DNA of 64,000 bases from Paracoccus sp. S-4012 (GTDB lineage: Bacteria > Pseudomonadota > Alphaproteobacteria > Rhodobacterales > Rhodobacteraceae): contig NZ_WKKA01000002.1 in assembly GCF_009674885.1 (NCBI RefSeq), positions 1 to 64,000 on the forward strand, written 5' to 3'. The position numbers and the translations under genes are program-made. Shown here one piece after another: positions 46,766-52,435 of this stretch. The stretch's first letter is position 1. Every line of letters starts with the position of its first letter. The notes under the pieces were generated by a model that did no database searches, had not been told where the DNA came from, and saw only the letters and a program-made list of their open reading frames with translations.

Positions 46766-47962
46766 ATGACCGCCGAGACCCAGGCCGAAGCCCAGGCAAA
46801 GCTGGCCGAAATCGAAAAGGTCACATCGGTGGTCCTGCCCGAACCGGCGCAAACGGAGGTGGTGCCGCTGGAACGCGCTCCCGCGCCGATCGCGGCCGAA
46901 ATCCGGCAGCGCATGGACGAGATCGACCTCAAGGACACCGGCTCCATCGTCCGCTTCGGCAGCCGCGCGCAGACCGAGCTGCAGGAGATCAGCCAGGCGA
47001 TGCTGGCCGACGTCAAGAACAAGGACGTGGGACCGGCGGGCGAGAGCCTGCGCGAGATCGTCTCGACCATTCGCGGCTTCTCGGTCTCGGAACTCGACGT
47101 GCGCCGCGAGCGCAGCTGGTGGGAGCGGCTGCTGGGCCGCAGTGCGCCCTTCGCCAAGTTCGTCGCCAATTACGAGCAGGTGCAGGGCCAGATCGACAAG
47201 GTCACGGACGAGCTTCTGGGGCACGAGCACAGGTTGCTCAAGGACATCAAGTCGCTCGACCTCCTCTATGACCGGACTCTGAACTTCTACGACGAACTGG
47301 CGCTCTACATTGCCGCGGGCGAGGCCAAGCTGAAGGAGCTGGACGGCGAGACCATCCCGGCCAAGCAGCGCGAGGCGGATGCCGCCGCGCCTGACGGGGC
47401 GATCATGGAGGCGCAGGAGCTGCGCGACCTGCGCGCGATGCGCGACGACCTCGAGCGGCGGGTGCATGACCTGAAGTTGACGCGGCAGGTGACGATGCAG
47501 TCGCTGCCCTCGATCCGGCTGGTGCAGGAGAACGACAAGTCGCTGGTCACGAAGATCAACAGCACCTTGGTCAACACCGTGCCGCTGTGGGAGACGCAGC
47601 TGGCGCAGGCGGTGACGATCCAGCGGTCGGCCGAGGCCGCGGCCTCGGTCCGGCAGGCGAGCGACCTGACCAACGACCTGCTGACCGCCAACGCCAAGAA
47701 CCTGCGCCAGGCGAATGCCACGATCCGCACCGAGATGGAGCGGGGGTTGTTCGACATCGAGGCGGTGCGGACGGCGAATGCCGAGCTGATCGCCACCATC
47801 GAGGATTCGCTCAGGATTGCCGACGAGGGCAAGGCCCGCCGCGCGGCGGCCGAGGCGGAACTGGTGCAGATGGAGGCCGAGCTGCGCCAGACGCTCGCCG
47901 CCTCGCAGTCGCGGTCGCAGGGTCCGAGCGCGCCCGTGGCGAGCAGGCGCGCGACGGCATGA
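46766..47962 (+). CDS. Toxic anion resistance protein, TelA family
   Basis: 398 residues from the ATG at 46766 (AGAGGACCGCCC upstream); an in-frame ATG lies 15 bases earlier. TelA-family pattern (PF05816): FGSRAQTELQEISQAMLADV, VSELDVRRERSWWERLLG, FAKFVANYEQVQGQIDKVTD, then long coiled coils (ELRDLRAMRDDLERRVHDLK, SLPSIRLVQENDKSLVTKIN). The family was named for tellurite resistance, but its function is uncertain. It heads a tight operon; the next start overlaps its stop (ATGA). Confidence 0.9.
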   Translation: MTAETQAEAQAKLAEIEKVTSVVLPEPAQTEVVPLERAPAPIAAEIRQRMDEIDLKDTGSIVRFGSRAQTELQEISQAMLADVKNKDVGPAGESLREIVSTIRGFSVSELDVRRERSWWERLLGRSAPFAKFVANYEQVQGQIDKVTDELLGHEHRLLKDIKSLDLLYDRTLNFYDELALYIAAGEAKLKELDGETIPAKQREADAAAPDGAIMEAQELRDLRAMRDDLERRVHDLKLTRQVTMQSLPSIRLVQENDKSLVTKINSTLVNTVPLWETQLAQAVTIQRSAEAAASVRQASDLTNDLLTANAKNLRQANATIRTEMERGLFDIEAVRTANAELIATIEDSLRIADEGKARRAAAEAELVQMEAELRQTLAASQSRSQGPSAPVASRRATA

Positions 47963-48969
47963 TCCGGCGCGCCAGCAGCACCGGGGCGGCGCTGCTGGCG
48001 CTCGCCCTCGTGGCCTGCGCGCCGGAGCCGCCTGCGCCCGATTCCGCCCCGGCGCCGGTCGCCCCGCGGCCGAAGCCGGCCGTTCGCGAGCCGCAGCCGA
48101 ACACCGCCGAACTGCGCCGCGCGCGGGTCGAGGCGGCACGAGCCGCTGCCGCTGCCGGTCGCAGCGAGGACAGCCAGACCATCGCCGGCTATTTCCGCGG
48201 CGTCGAGGAGCAGCTCCTCGCCCGCGGTCGGCTCAGGACCGACAGCGGCACGTCCGAGGGGCTGCCCACCGCCGCCGCCCTCGCCGCGACCTTCGCCGAG
48301 GTCGCGCTGCGCAGCGAATATACCCGCGTGGCCACCGGCCTCACGCGCAGCGATGGCGATGTCCCCCTGCGGCGCTGGGAGGTGCCGGTCCGCATCCGGC
48401 TGGAGTTCGGCGCTGCCGTGCCGCCCGACCAGCGGGTCCGTGACCGCGACGTGGTGGCGAACTATGCCGCCCGCCTCGCCCGCGTGACCGGGCACGACAT
48501 TGCACTGGCCACCGAGGGCGGCAACTTCCTCCTCCATGTCGTGACCGAGGATGAGCGCCGCGCCCTCAGCCCCCGCCTCGCCGCCGAGGCGCCGGGCGTG
48601 CCGGCCGCCGACATCGCCGCGCTGACCCGCATGTCACCGCAGACCGCCTGCACCGTCTTCGCCTATGGCCGTGCCCCCGAGGCGGGCTACACCACCGCCG
48701 TCGCGGTGATCCGGGCCGAACTGCCGGATCTCTCGCGCACCGCCTGCCTGCACGAGGAGATCGCGCAGGGCCTCGGCCTGCCCAACGACAGCGGCACCTC
48801 ACGCCCCTCGATCTTCAACGACGACGACGAGTTTGCCTATCTCACCCGCCATGACGAGCTTCTGCTGCAAATCCTCTACGATCCCGCCTTGCGCCCCGGC
48901 ATGACAGCGGCCGAGGTGCGCCCCATCGTCGAGCAGATCGCGCAGCGGCTGGTCGGCGCGGGCACCTGA
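47959..48969 (+). CDS. DUF2927 domain lipoprotein
   Basis: 336 residues. A lipobox (LLALALVAC, Cys at about residue 20) marks it as a lipoprotein, followed by a Pro-rich linker and a DUF2927 domain: RWEVPVRIRLEFGAAVPPDQ, FLLHVVTEDERRAL, CLHEEIAQGLGLPNDSG and FAYLTRHDELLLQILYDPAL. The H-E-E-x-x-Q-x-L-G segment resembles a degenerate metallopeptidase helix, without the second zinc His. Start overlaps the TelA stop. It would sit in the periplasm, anchored to a membrane. Confidence 0.85.
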   Translation: MIRRASSTGAALLALALVACAPEPPAPDSAPAPVAPRPKPAVREPQPNTAELRRARVEAARAAAAAGRSEDSQTIAGYFRGVEEQLLARGRLRTDSGTSEGLPTAAALAATFAEVALRSEYTRVATGLTRSDGDVPLRRWEVPVRIRLEFGAAVPPDQRVRDRDVVANYAARLARVTGHDIALATEGGNFLLHVVTEDERRALSPRLAAEAPGVPAADIAALTRMSPQTACTVFAYGRAPEAGYTTAVAVIRAELPDLSRTACLHEEIAQGLGLPNDSGTSRPSIFNDDDEFAYLTRHDELLLQILYDPALRPGMTAAEVRPIVEQIAQRLVGAGT

Positions 48970-48993
48970 AACCCTCACTCGGGAGCAGCCCAC

Positions 48994-50175
48994 ATGGCCC
49001 TCTTCGACTTCCTCGGCAGCGAGTTCATCGAGGTCATCGCCTGGACCGACGACACCCGCGACACGATGGTCTGGCGCTTCGAGACGCATGGCAACGCGAT
49101 CAAATACGGCGCCAAGCTGACCGTGCGCGAAGGACAGGCGGCGGTCTTCGTCCATGAGGGGCAGCTGGCCGACGTGTTCGGCCCCGGCCTCTGGATGCTC
49201 GAGACCAACAACATGCCGGTCCTGACCCGGCTCCAGCACTGGCACCACGGCTTCCAGTCGCCCTTCAAGTCCGAGATCTATTTCGTCAACACCACCCGCT
49301 TCAACAACAACAAATGGGGCACCAAGAACCCGATCATCGTCCGCGATCCCGAGTTCGGCGCGGTGCGCGTCCGCGCCTTCGGCACCTATTCCATGCGCGC
49401 CAGCGACCCGGCGCGCTTCATGGCCGAGATCGTCGGCACCGACGGCGAGTTCACCGCCGACGAAATCAGCTACCAGATCCGCAACGTGATCGTGCAGGAG
49501 TTCAGCCGCGCCATCGCGTCGTCGGGCATCCCGGTCCTCGACATGGCGGCCAATACCGGCGACCTGGCGAAGCTCGTCAGCACCGCCATCGCGCCCACGG
49601 TGGCGCAATACGGCCTCACGCTGCCCGAGTTCTACATCGAGAACATCTCGCTGCCCGACGAGGTCGAGCGGATGCTCGACAAGCGCACCTCGATGGGGAT
49701 CGTGGGCGATCTGGGCCGCTTCAGCCAGTATGCGATGAGCGAGGCGATGCTGCGCGGGGCCGAAGCGCCGGGCGGCGGTATCGGCGCGGGCATCGGCGCC
49801 GGCATGGGTGCCGCGCTCGGCGCCGGCATGGCGCAGCGGGTCGGCGCCGGCATGGCGCAGCGGGTCGGCGGCGCGATGGGACCGTGGGGGCAGATCCCAG
49901 CAACGGCGGCCGGGGCAGGGGCCTATCCGGCGGTGCCGCCGCCGCTGCCAAGCGAACGCGTCTGGCATATCGCGGTGAACGGAGAGGCGGACGGGCCCTA
50001 CGGGCGCGCGAACCTGGGGCGAATGGTCCGCGACGGCAGCTTCACCCGCGACACGCTGGTCTGGACGCCGGGAACCGAGGGCTGGCAGAAGGCAGGCGAG
50101 GTGGACGAGCTGGCGCAGCTCTTCACCGTCATGCCGCCGCCGCCTCCGGTCCCGCCGGGCCTGCCGTCGTCGTGA
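48994..50175 (+). CDS. SPFH-domain protein with C-terminal GYF_2 domain
   Basis: 393 residues. Residues 1-250 form an SPFH domain of the YdjI/'virion core protein' type (MVWRFETHGNAIKYGAKLTV, GGQ-like LADVFGPGLWMLETNN, PFKSEIYFVNTTRFNNNKWG, VRVRAFGTYSMRASDPARFM). A Gly-rich linker contains a perfect 24-bp duplication (49822-49869) encoding the repeated GMAQRVGA. Residues about 325-375 are a GYF_2 domain (WHIAVNGEADGPYGRANLGR, TLVWTPGTEGWQKAGEV). SPFH proteins form membrane-associated rings or scaffolds. Confidence 0.9.
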   Translation: MALFDFLGSEFIEVIAWTDDTRDTMVWRFETHGNAIKYGAKLTVREGQAAVFVHEGQLADVFGPGLWMLETNNMPVLTRLQHWHHGFQSPFKSEIYFVNTTRFNNNKWGTKNPIIVRDPEFGAVRVRAFGTYSMRASDPARFMAEIVGTDGEFTADEISYQIRNVIVQEFSRAIASSGIPVLDMAANTGDLAKLVSTAIAPTVAQYGLTLPEFYIENISLPDEVERMLDKRTSMGIVGDLGRFSQYAMSEAMLRGAEAPGGGIGAGIGAGMGAALGAGMAQRVGAGMAQRVGGAMGPWGQIPATAAGAGAYPAVPPPLPSERVWHIAVNGEADGPYGRANLGRMVRDGSFTRDTLVWTPGTEGWQKAGEVDELAQLFTVMPPPPPVPPGLPSS

Positions 50176-50204
50176 CGGCGCCGCCCCGCGTCCGGTAGCC
50201 TCCC

Positions 50205-51482
50205 ATGCCCTCGGCCCCCGTCGAACACCGCTACCCCTGCGAGAACTGCGGCGCCGCGCTGCGCTTCACGCCGGGGCAGAACCTGCTGACCTGCGACTAC
50301 TGCGGGCACCGCCAGACCATCGGTCCGGGCGCGGCCCGCGCGCCGGGTCGCCAGCCCGAGGGCGGCATCGCGGGCGAGGACGTGCTGCTCGAGCAGCCCG
50401 GCACCGGCCGGGCGCTGCAATGGGATGCGGGCCACAAGGCGCCGGAGCTGCGCGAGATCCCGCTGGCCGAGGGGCTGCGGCTGGACGCCGGCTCCGACCT
50501 CGCGATGACGGTCCGCACCGTCTCCTGCCCCAATTGCGGCGCCCGGATCGAGGTCGAGGGCGACCGCCATGCCGGTCAGTGCCCCTTCTGCGCCACGCCG
50601 GTCGTCACCGACACCGGGGCCTCGCGTCTCATTAAGCCGCAGGGCGTGCTGCCCTTCGTGCTGTCCGAGGAGGAGGCGCGCCGGGCGCTCGAGGCCTGGC
50701 TCAAGGGCCTCTGGTTCGCGCCGGGGGGCCTCCGGCAATACGCCCGCAGGAACCGGCGCATGAGCGGCATCTACTCGCCCTTCTGGACCTTCGACGGCGA
50801 CACCCGCACCGACTATCGGGGTCAGCGCGGCGACAACTACACCGAGACCGTCTATGTCACCCGCGAGGTCGACGGCCGCATGCAGCGGGTGCCGCAGACG
50901 GTGGTCAAGACCCGCTGGCGGCCAGCCTCGGGGCGGGTGGCGCGGGCCTTCAACGACGTGCTGGTCCTCGCCTCCACCTCGCTGCCGCGGCGCTTCACCG
51001 ACGGGCTGACGCCGTGGGACCTGTCGCACCTGACCCCTTACCGGCCCGAATACCTCGCCGGCTTCGCCGCCGAGGGCTACACCGTGCCGCTGGAGACCGG
51101 CCACGAGGTCGCCCGCGCGCAGATGGCCGAGGTGATCGCGATGGACATCCGCCGCGACATCGGCGGCGACCATCAGCGCATCGACGCGATGGACACCGAG
51201 CACTCCTCCGAAACCTTCAAGCACATCCTGCTGCCGCTCTGGTCCGCCGCCTACCGCTATGGCGGCAAGAGCTACCGCTTCGTGGTGAACGGCCAGACCG
51301 GCCGGGTGCAGGGCGAGCGGCCGTGGTCGGCCTGGAAGATTGCGGTGGCGGTGATCCTCGCGCTGATCCTGCTGGCCGCGATGCTGCTGCTGTCGGAGGG
51401 CGGGAACATCCGGCTCGGCGGGCTGTTGCCGGGCGCAGCGGTGGTGGCGGCCGCTGCGACGACGCCGCCCCCACCCATCTGA
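50205..51482 (+). CDS. Zinc-ribbon membrane protein (YdjG-like)
   Basis: 425 residues. Two N-terminal zinc ribbons: CENCGAALRF...CDYCGHR and CPNCGARIEV...CPFCATPV. A beta-rich middle region follows (SGIYSPFWTFDGDTRTDYRG, YVTREVDGRMQRVPQTVVKT, PLWSAAYRYGGKSYRFVVNG), and a single transmembrane segment near the C-terminus (IAVAVILALILLAAMLLLSE). Bacillus ydjG encodes a similar zinc-ribbon membrane partner of the SPFH protein YdjI; the adjacency here supports the same relationship. Confidence 0.85.
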   Translation: MPSAPVEHRYPCENCGAALRFTPGQNLLTCDYCGHRQTIGPGAARAPGRQPEGGIAGEDVLLEQPGTGRALQWDAGHKAPELREIPLAEGLRLDAGSDLAMTVRTVSCPNCGARIEVEGDRHAGQCPFCATPVVTDTGASRLIKPQGVLPFVLSEEEARRALEAWLKGLWFAPGGLRQYARRNRRMSGIYSPFWTFDGDTRTDYRGQRGDNYTETVYVTREVDGRMQRVPQTVVKTRWRPASGRVARAFNDVLVLASTSLPRRFTDGLTPWDLSHLTPYRPEYLAGFAAEGYTVPLETGHEVARAQMAEVIAMDIRRDIGGDHQRIDAMDTEHSSETFKHILLPLWSAAYRYGGKSYRFVVNGQTGRVQGERPWSAWKIAVAVILALILLAAMLLLSEGGNIRLGGLLPGAAVVAAAATTPPPPI

Positions 51483-51489
51483 GGGCAGC

Positions 51490-51981
51490 ATGGACTGGGA
51501 TCTCGCCAGCCGCATCGTCATCTCGCTGGGCCTGCCCTTCTCGATCTTCGTCTTCCTCTACGAGCGTCGGAAGGAGCGCGAGGCCGACGCGGTGGAGGTC
51601 AACGAGGCGCTTTCCGCCGCCTACACCGACTTCCTCAAGCTGGTGATCCAGAACCCCGACCTGAGCCTGAGCTCCGACCGCTCGACGCCCGGCCTGAACG
51701 AGGAACAGCGCGAGCGGATGAATGCCATTTTCGAGATCCTGACCTCGATCTTTCAGCGGGCCTATCTGCTGGGCTTCGGCCGCAACCTGACCGGCAAGCG
51801 CGGCAAGCGGTGGCGCGCCTGGGAGGCCTATATGCGCCAGTGGTGCCGACGCGACGACTACCGCGCCCGGCTAGCCGCGCTGCTGCCGATCGAGGATCCC
51901 GACTTCGCCCGCTTCATCCGCCGGATCGCGGCGGAGGAGGAGGCGCGGGCCGAGCAGCCGCCCGGGCCTACGGGGACATGA
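51490..51981 (+). CDS. Small membrane-anchored protein, unknown function
   Basis: 163 residues: an N-terminal transmembrane helix ([17 protein letters not shown]) and a charged helical cytoplasmic part ([71 protein letters not shown]). I do not recognise a family. It starts 7 bases after the zinc-ribbon gene and is the last gene of the TelA operon before dtd, so it probably belongs to the same membrane system. Confidence 0.75.
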
Positions 51982-51994
51982 GGGAGGACATCTG

Positions 51995-52435
51995 ATGCGG
52001 GTGCTGTTGCAGCGGGTAAGCGAGGCGCGCGTCACGGTGGAGGGCCGCGTGACCGGCAAGATCGGGCCGGGGCTGCTGGCGCTCGTCTGCGCCATGCCGG
52101 GCGACAGGCCGGAGGACGCGGCGAAGATGGCCGCACGCGTGGCGAAGCTGCGGATCTTCCGCGACGAGGCGGGCCGGATGAACCTGCCGGTGACCGAGGC
52201 CGGGAACGCCATCCTCGCCGTCAGCCAGTTCACGCTCGCCGCGGACCTCAGGACCGGCAACCGCCCCGGCTTCTCCCGCGCCGCCCCGCCGGAGGAGGCC
52301 GAGGCGCGTTACGAGGACTTCTGCGCGGCGCTGCGCGACCTCGGCATCACCGTGGCGACCGGCGAGTTCGCGGCCGAGATGCAGGTCGCGCTGGTCAACG
52401 ACGGCCCCGTCACGATCTGGATGGACTCGTCGTAG
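51995..52435 (+). CDS. dtd: D-aminoacyl-tRNA deacylase
   Basis: 146 residues, full length. Motifs: [19 protein letters not shown], the active-site [20 protein letters not shown] and the closing [18 protein letters not shown]. Dtd removes D-amino acids (and glycine from tRNA-Ala) mischarged on tRNA. The start is 13 bases after the previous stop, so it may be the distal gene of the same transcript. Confidence 0.96.

Follow-up and report, generated by a model that had tools for sequence, protein, structure and literature searches.

The 64,000-nucleotide window analyzed here (positions 1 to 64,000 of contig NZ_WKKA01000002.1, Paracoccus sp. S-4012) carries on its plus strand, at positions 46766–51981, five packed open reading frames (ORFs) encoding a TelA protein, a DUF2927 lipoprotein, an SPFH protein with a GYF_2 domain, a two-zinc-ribbon membrane protein, and a small membrane-anchored protein. 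The successive gaps are −4, 24, 29, and 7 bases, and a codon-usage gene caller recovers the same five genes, with dtd next. An earlier note, made from the letters alone, had described the same tightly spaced genes, and its family calls are borne out by Pfam for TelA, DUF2927, and SPFH-GYF, and by paired CxxC motifs and a single membrane span for the zinc-ribbon protein. Judged by homology, the cluster is the union of two known modules—i.e. XpaC-TelA and SPFH-zinc-ribbon—and we hold with moderate confidence that it is a membrane-protection operon in which both modules act as one machine around a zinc-ribbon-anchored scaffold, with DUF2927 as an accessory.

Gene content and recurrence of the cluster

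The first gene, telA (46766–47962), is a core gene of the cluster and encodes a probably cytosolic protein of 398 aa from the TelA/YaaN family (PF05816, E = 5.2e-106). It is followed by the DUF2927 lipoprotein gene (47959–48969; 336 aa; PF11150, E = 1.5e-62), whose product has a predicted matrixin-like fold and a degenerate zinc site, EExxQxxGxxND. The SPFH gene (48994–50175; Band_7_1, PF13421, E = 2.7e-101) ends in a GYF_2 domain (E = 1.5e-18) and a polyproline tail, and the fourth gene (50205–51482) encodes a two-zinc-ribbon protein of the YdjG type with eight cysteines, a central beta domain, and a C-terminal membrane span. A simple hydropathy scan with a span threshold of 1.6 detects one span in the zinc-ribbon protein (start 379), one in the small fifth protein (start 5), and none in TelA or the SPFH protein.

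A search of 149 genomes of the family (the search tool's label f1, approximately one genome per genus) places TelA and the zinc-ribbon protein in 133 each, SPFH in 137 (some matches being fragments), and DUF2927 in 140 (weak longer paralogues included). The order TelA, DUF2927, SPFH, and zinc-ribbon is seen repeatedly across the family. Gene order was counted in two sets of loci, which were hand-picked from ranked matches, some as odd-looking, and which overlap (8 identical zinc-ribbon C-termini), so these counts are neither random nor independent. The first set comprises 60 fetched loci (L036–L095), 56 of them analyzable after leaving out L070 (TelA alone) and L077–L079 (small-protein loci). 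The second comprises 80 loci (20 from Paracoccus and 60 others), with 19 Paracoccus and 56 other loci analyzable; five without an SPFH or zinc-ribbon label were left out (L115, L163, L168, L164 [at or near a contig end], and L172). In the first set, DUF2927 directly follows TelA in 54 of 56 loci, SPFH lies at most three genes after DUF2927 in 55 (46 directly), and the zinc-ribbon gene at most three genes after SPFH in 53 (28 directly). The SPFH/zinc-ribbon pair is found within three genes in all 19 Paracoccus and all 56 other analyzable loci of the second set. The clustering of the first four genes recurs across the family and is not due to chance, and the comparison of gene order around TelA homologues, which the earlier note had set as a check on co-conservation, is passed. 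A cytochrome b561 gene stands between SPFH and the zinc-ribbon gene in 13 loci of L036–L095, and the inserted genes vary.

The fifth gene (51490–51981) has a different history. It encodes a 163-aa protein with an N-terminal anchor and, as already remarked from the letters, no recognized family (nothing over the Pfam cut-off). It is encoded in only 5 of 61 genomes and, among the loci read, lies beside the cluster only in the window's genome (G000) and in G028; in L079, its homologue is near polyphosphate kinase and Ppx genes. An unannotated homologue with 53% identity over 72% of the small protein is also found on a Sinorhizobium chiapasense plasmid (L254:4211-4561). The gene looks like a recent, lineage-specific local insertion, and we treat it as accessory rather than as part of the system to which it had been assigned. 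The same-strand gene dtd (51995–52435; PF02580, E = 3.4e-53; TIGR00256, E = 4.2e-51), encoding a D-aminoacyl-tRNA deacylase with an unrelated known function, starts 13 bases 3' of the fifth ORF. Since the fifth gene is a rare insertion and dtd follows it so closely, the five genes are not a natural unit: the first four recur across the family, the fifth is local, dtd extends the run, and xpaC, otherwise the usual first gene, is lacking. In many loci across genera (L036–L175), dtd lies downstream of the cluster or closes it, and a PfkB kinase or nitroreductase gene often stands before it.

TelA and its partner XpaC

Outside Paracoccus, TelA is usually preceded by XpaC (PF10112), which lies directly upstream in 51 of 56 loci of the first set and in 48 of the 56 non-Paracoccus loci of the second. 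XpaC adjoins TelA in none of the 19 Paracoccus loci. There, TelA comes after FadJ (in 8 of 15 TelA-bearing Paracoccus loci, and also in the window) or after other genes. XpaC is nevertheless present in 40 of 41 Paracoccus-genus genomes, unlinked where Paracoccus loci were read, and in the window's genome it is found on another contig (G000:C11). Across the 149 family genomes, XpaC matches over the cut-off and TelA have an identical distribution, with 133 genomes carrying both and 16 neither, as counted without kinship correction. That the two remain present together even once unlinked is good evidence that they function jointly, and XpaC is a core partner of the cluster—i.e. its usual first gene outside Paracoccus, absent from the window locus.

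The co-occurrence extends to the other module, as XpaC, TelA, SPFH, and the zinc-ribbon protein are all present in 130 of the 149 genomes, all absent in 13, and mixed in 6. For this table, the XpaC match of G150 (E 3.6e-4, under the cut-off) and the SPFH match of G162 (GYF part only) were set as absent, and a short SPFH fragment in G158 was kept as present. Four of the mixed genomes (G082, G155, G179, and G081) have an SPFH match at a contig edge, and the other two (G128 and G138) are 76% and 83% complete.

A sigma-70 scan of the gap between fadJ and telA in the window finds no promoter-like site. Of 16 telA upstream regions from Paracoccus (L101–L113 among them), 11 carry a TTGnnn-N15/18-TATnnT element, against a mean of 0.17 and a maximum of 2 in mononucleotide shuffles; the window is one of the misses. 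Before XpaC in other genera, no such enrichment is seen (1 of 51 loci; 1.33 in shuffles).

In the available passages of published work, both modules appear among stress-regulated genes of Bacillota. For example, sigma-W dependence is listed for xpaC-yaaN, for yceC-H, and for pspA-ydjGHI (PMC3498285), xpaC is upregulated in an Enterococcus faecium liaR mutant (PMC10269926), and a transcriptome table in a study of membrane-protein overproduction in Lactococcus lactis gives ratios of 10.3 for llmg_1115 (XpaC-like) and 3.44 for telA1 (PMC3139573). Disruption of Listeria lmo1967 (TelA/YaaN-like) is described as raising sensitivity to nisin 4-fold and to tellurite 2-fold (PMC12791056). A Paracoccus TelA is also reported by metaproteomics of early plastic biofilms (PMC11962581).

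The larger effect on nisin than on tellurite in Listeria bears on a first alternative, namely that the cluster confers resistance to tellurite or other toxic anions, or to metals, with TelA and the zinc-ribbon proteins handling metals and TerC helping. TelA is the name-giving family of such resistance, and a TerC-family gene lies just upstream of XpaC in 10 loci of L036–L095. However, a gene found in 133 of 149 family genomes, with a single match in 130 of these, is unlike acquired resistance, and we consider this explanation highly improbable. Both TelA and XpaC are stress proteins of wide occurrence, and a survey of Ter systems by Anantharaman and colleagues may discuss the pair. A sequence comparison of TelA with solved structures gives no convincing match (best E 0.047, to a receptor fusion).

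It had also been proposed that TelA takes the place of PspA. The window's genome has no match to PF04012 (PspA/IM30), and 79 of 100 family genomes likewise have none over the cut-off. Yet TelA occurs alongside PspA in 19 of the 21 PspA-bearing genomes and is therefore no strict replacement for it; TelA belongs instead to the separate XpaC-TelA module. Two further identities were considered and rejected. The five proteins match no PADLOC model of anti-phage defense at E 0.01, and PHROGs returns only TelA, as a tellurite-resistance moron (E 1.7e-47), and a weak match to the zinc-ribbon protein, arguing against a phage origin.

The DUF2927 lipoprotein

An AlphaFold2 model of DUF2927, built from an alignment of 54 sequences, has a mean pLDDT of 87.5. 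Its top Foldseek matches in the PDB are matrix metalloproteinases and snapalysin (best E 0.0099, with no match at E 0.001 or better). VIA-align, used for a second look at these top matches, superposes the model on MMP-7 (2y6d) with Z 12.1 and an rmsd of 2.5 over 147 residues, and all 50 matches listed are matrixins. By sequence, DUF2927 has no convincing solved relative (best E 0.13), and its hhalign comparison with 8 M10 sequences—those with a readable motif among 25 fetched M10 loci—is not significant (Prob 0.04%), with the motif in the expected register.

The position of the metzincin motif HExxHxxGxxH is occupied by residues 266–277 (EEIAQGLGLPND; 48754–48789, plus strand), in which the three histidines are replaced by Glu, Gln, and Asn. 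The resulting EExxQxxGxxND is found in 125 of 127 aligned rows (118 of 120 distinct proteins, window included) and in 17 of 17 further DUF2927 homologues and paralogues. Across all 137 motifs (from the 120 distinct proteins and the 17 others), Glu stands in place of the first His, and Gln in place of the second with one exception, G061 (L089), which reads EExxHxxGxxNH. The His of G061 at the place of the second ligand agrees with the register proposed. The other exception is a Paracoccus protein with Ala for Asn. The divergent protein of L089 is a possible intermediate between the matrixin and DUF2927 sites. Second, longer DUF2927 paralogues (444–464 aa) are encoded elsewhere in family genomes (L208–L213), with EExxQxxGxxND in 6 of 6.

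With its altered HExxHxxGxxH, DUF2927 resembles matrixins in its fold as modeled but is no canonical zinc peptidase: the model has the metzincin fold, and the HExxHxxGxxH/D zinc motif is absent. That the motif is so strictly conserved points to a functional site, perhaps one for a hard cation, and away from decay. Such conservation is also what would be expected if DUF2927 were catalytically active, that is, if it had an unusual metal site, cut a substrate in the envelope as a peptidase, and signaled to the other components, an alternative to which the retained catalytic-position Glu and motif Gly, as well as the matrixin fold itself, lend some weight. Against it stands the near-complete replacement of the ligands described above, and to our knowledge no known metzincin uses Glu, Gln, and Asn, making such an activity very unlikely.

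DUF2927 carries a lipobox-like LVAC at residues 17–20. The residue after the lipobox cysteine decides lipoprotein sorting; it is Ala in the window, mixed in relatives, and Asp in 15 of 78 motif-bearing rows (of 127). DUF2927 may thus reside in the outer membrane, which leaves unsupported an earlier view of the products as a complex that could span both faces of the inner membrane.

The SPFH-zinc-ribbon pair and the case for one machine

The zinc-ribbon protein has two CxxC...CxxC pairs whose eight cysteines are invariant in the family alignment, and it has no Pfam match over the cut-off among the 25 listed of 34. Its AlphaFold2 model comprises two zinc ribbons and a central beta domain. Foldseek matches of this model (pore-forming toxins, secretins, and others) have probabilities below 0.3 among the matches listed and were taken as noise. 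The C-terminal domain of YpeB ranks second in VIA-align (Z 3.6 over 66 residues). This would fit the YpeB-like domain that the available part of PMC11237479 gives for YdjG, but the match is too weak to count. In the SPFH protein, a PPxP-like tail is found in 74 of 74 relatives, and a GYF signature pattern of our own making matches 51 of 74. GYF domains bind proline-rich peptides, and the conserved tail suggests that the SPFH protein self-associates through its GYF domain.

Distant homologues of the zinc-ribbon protein are found on 12 plasmid records, of which those of four organisms were read: Vibrio (1 of 3 records), Tsukamurella, Comamonas, and Enterococcus. An SPFH gene lies immediately upstream in 4 of 4 of these loci, and in Enterococcus (L252), the pair is followed by a TPM-domain gene (YdjH family). 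Seven of the eight cysteines are invariant across all six aligned zinc-ribbon proteins, distant homologues included. Between the window and Enterococcus, identity is 27% for the zinc-ribbon protein (E 3e-37) and 21% for SPFH (E 8e-10). The C-termini of the distant SPFH proteins differ, as judged by Pfam runs on the SPFH proteins of these four and the window: those of Vibrio and Tsukamurella end in GYF_2, that of Comamonas in HTH_17, and that of Enterococcus in a double zinc ribbon scoring below the cut-off. Genes encoding TIR-domain and TRAFs-binding-domain proteins are close to the SPFH-GYF/zinc-ribbon pair of the Vibrio coralliilyticus plasmid (L249:605-2849).

The window thus has a Band_7_1 SPFH gene followed by a gene for a two-zinc-ribbon protein with a C-terminal span, and no TPM domain (YdjH) is listed for the six cluster proteins scanned by Pfam, the rest of the genome being outside this search. 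The order of the two genes, together with the upstream SPFH genes of the distant loci and the TPM gene of Enterococcus, identifies the window pair as YdjI-YdjG type, judged by gene content and the description in the available part of PMC11237479 rather than by Bacillus subtilis sequences; the kinship with ydjI/ydjG that had been suspected thereby holds. In B. subtilis, the SPFH protein YdjI is likely soluble, and its recruitment to the membrane needs YdjG and YdjH, on which the membrane recruitment of PspA also depends, according to the passages available (PMC8581546).

Whether both modules form one machine is where the evidence divides. A rival explanation sees two independent housekeeping modules, XpaC-TelA(-DUF2927) and SPFH-zinc-ribbon, each functional alone and neighbors by inheritance. 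Several observations weigh against a single machine, and two of them, the breaks at the DUF2927/SPFH junction and the lack of an annotated TelA near the distant SPFH-zinc-ribbon pairs, favor this rival. The DUF2927/SPFH junction is broken in four genomes, with XpaC-TelA-DUF2927 and SPFH-zinc-ribbon held at two separate places in G143, G170, and G122 and likewise split, by match coordinates, in G145. Breaks between TelA and DUF2927 occur in G078 and G064, and the zinc-ribbon gene is inverted in G188 and both inverted and moved upstream in G187. In the Paracoccus loci L098, L100, and L106, the upstream flank of the SPFH-zinc-ribbon pair is without TelA or DUF2927, and L172 (Rhodovulum) counts against linkage, as its flanks are full yet its zinc-ribbon gene has no SPFH, TelA, XpaC, or DUF2927 label nearby. 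Linkage of the cluster genes is therefore not obligatory. In the four distant SPFH-zinc-ribbon loci, neither TelA nor XpaC is annotated within 7 kb; across bacteria, therefore, the two modules need not be neighbors. Other points against the single machine are that even the best structural match of the zinc-ribbon model is not significant (VIA Z 3.7), that the hydrophobic stretches of XpaC stay below the span threshold (best 1.41 vs. 1.6), that the joint loss in 13 genomes may reflect few evolutionary events, and that we found no interaction or phenotype data for any Rhodobacterales member.

DUF2927 also behaves differently from the other genes, since a strong DUF2927 persists in 6 of the 13 genomes without XpaC, TelA, SPFH, and zinc-ribbon. 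Five of these six were read (L219–L223) and lie beside RluB, TerC, or dtd, the usual neighbors of the cluster. Conversely, the cluster is kept without DUF2927 in L197 and L198, and G075 and G206 have no strong match. Outlasting the other genes, DUF2927 may have its own role; it can be kept or lost independently and is a semi-independent accessory. In the decayed cluster of L219 (G149), TerC, a 122-aa XpaC-like remnant, DUF2927, and dtd are left, and TelA, SPFH, and the zinc-ribbon gene are gone.

Searches of the class (115 genomes each) return 5 matches to the zinc-ribbon profile (one weak), TelA over the cut-off in 10 genomes, and SPFH PF13421 over the cut-off in 15, strong (E below 1e-70) in 5. 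Four class loci (L202–L205) favor separate modules, as an XpaC-like gene (E 6e-6 to 1e-15) adjoins TelA or lies one gene away, without SPFH or zinc-ribbon; L206 has TelA and no XpaC-like gene, and L200 (G048; TelA gene not recovered by the gene caller) and L207 (no TelA label) were left uninterpreted. By contrast, in two other families of the class (L197 and L198), XpaC, TelA, SPFH, and zinc-ribbon are contiguous, and the four genes are jointly missing in 13 of 149 family genomes, both of which speak against mere inherited proximity. We regard two independent modules as possible but rather unlikely.

Under the single-machine reading, which we continue to prefer, the operon would be expressed constitutively or upon stress and would protect the membrane. 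Beyond the gene order, co-occurrence, homologies, and predicted fold described above, we infer, by analogy with the Bacillota systems, the contacts, topology, stress role, and DUF2927 activity as follows. The zinc-ribbon protein would be the anchor, with one C-terminal span and its zinc ribbons and beta domain in the cytosol, and would recruit the soluble SPFH-GYF protein. The latter would oligomerize into a sub-membrane scaffold, possibly with GYF domains gripping the polyproline tails of neighbors. TelA, with XpaC (probably membrane-associated and, here, encoded elsewhere in the genome), would be the effector that binds or stabilizes damaged inner membrane, so that XpaC-TelA and SPFH-zinc-ribbon would work as one machine. 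DUF2927, an exported lipoprotein, would most likely be a non-proteolytic adaptor on the envelope side or a binder of a harder cation. We consider unlikely a bolder version, namely that XpaC-TelA and SPFH-GYF/zinc-ribbon of Rhodobacterales make up a single complex within a trans-envelope repair machine independent of PspA, whose periplasmic or outer-membrane side is read by a pseudo-matrixin lipoprotein carrying an all-oxygen metal site.

The earlier idea of an undescribed system is too strong, given that each half is already known from Bacillota as a stress-regulated unit; the novelty lies in the joining of the two and in the addition of DUF2927. Within the literature searched, this union, the exact co-occurrence of XpaC and TelA, and the matrixin assignment of DUF2927 appear new. 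No paper naming DUF2927 was found among the open-license papers searched, nor was one including TelA listed when at least three of TelA, SPFH, zinc ribbon, and PspA were combined, and none on Rhodobacter, Paracoccus, or Ruegeria had both TelA and SPFH among the matches listed. The main text of a survey of Psp neighborhoods, in the part available, is without TelA and DUF2927 (PMC11237479). The co-occurrence of XpaC and TelA and their linkage to a scaffold of the PspA-recruiting kind give a concrete hypothesis of what these proteins bind, testable in tractable alphaproteobacteria, and suggest how a family mostly without PspA protects its inner membrane. For the DUF2927 family, the matrixin-like fold provides a structural assignment with a clear metal-site test.

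The cluster can be compared with four known systems. It resembles matrixins (M10 metzincins) in the predicted fold of DUF2927 residues 111–310 and in the motif Glu and Gly, but DUF2927 reads EExxQxxGxxN for HExxHxxGxxH and has no significant sequence-profile similarity to them. As in Psp systems, a coiled-coil protein is combined with SPFH/zinc-ribbon membrane partners at the inner membrane face, whereas the window's genome is without a PspA match and TelA is not known to be related to PspA. The XpaC-TelA module (B. subtilis xpaC-yaaN, Listeria lmo1966-1967, and Lactococcus llmg_1115-1116) shares the TelA family protein, the XpaC gene directly upstream in most non-Paracoccus relatives read, and the same phyletic pattern; it differs in that XpaC is unlinked in Paracoccus and that the Bacillota operons, as given in the passages available, are without an SPFH, zinc-ribbon, or DUF2927 gene. 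Finally, B. subtilis pspA-ydjGHI and Enterococcus L252 likewise pair a cytosolic SPFH protein with a two-zinc-ribbon membrane protein. In comparison with pspA-ydjGHI, the window cluster is without PspA and TPM/YdjH, its SPFH protein ends in GYF_2 and polyproline rather than in a zinc ribbon, and its pair is joined to TelA and DUF2927.

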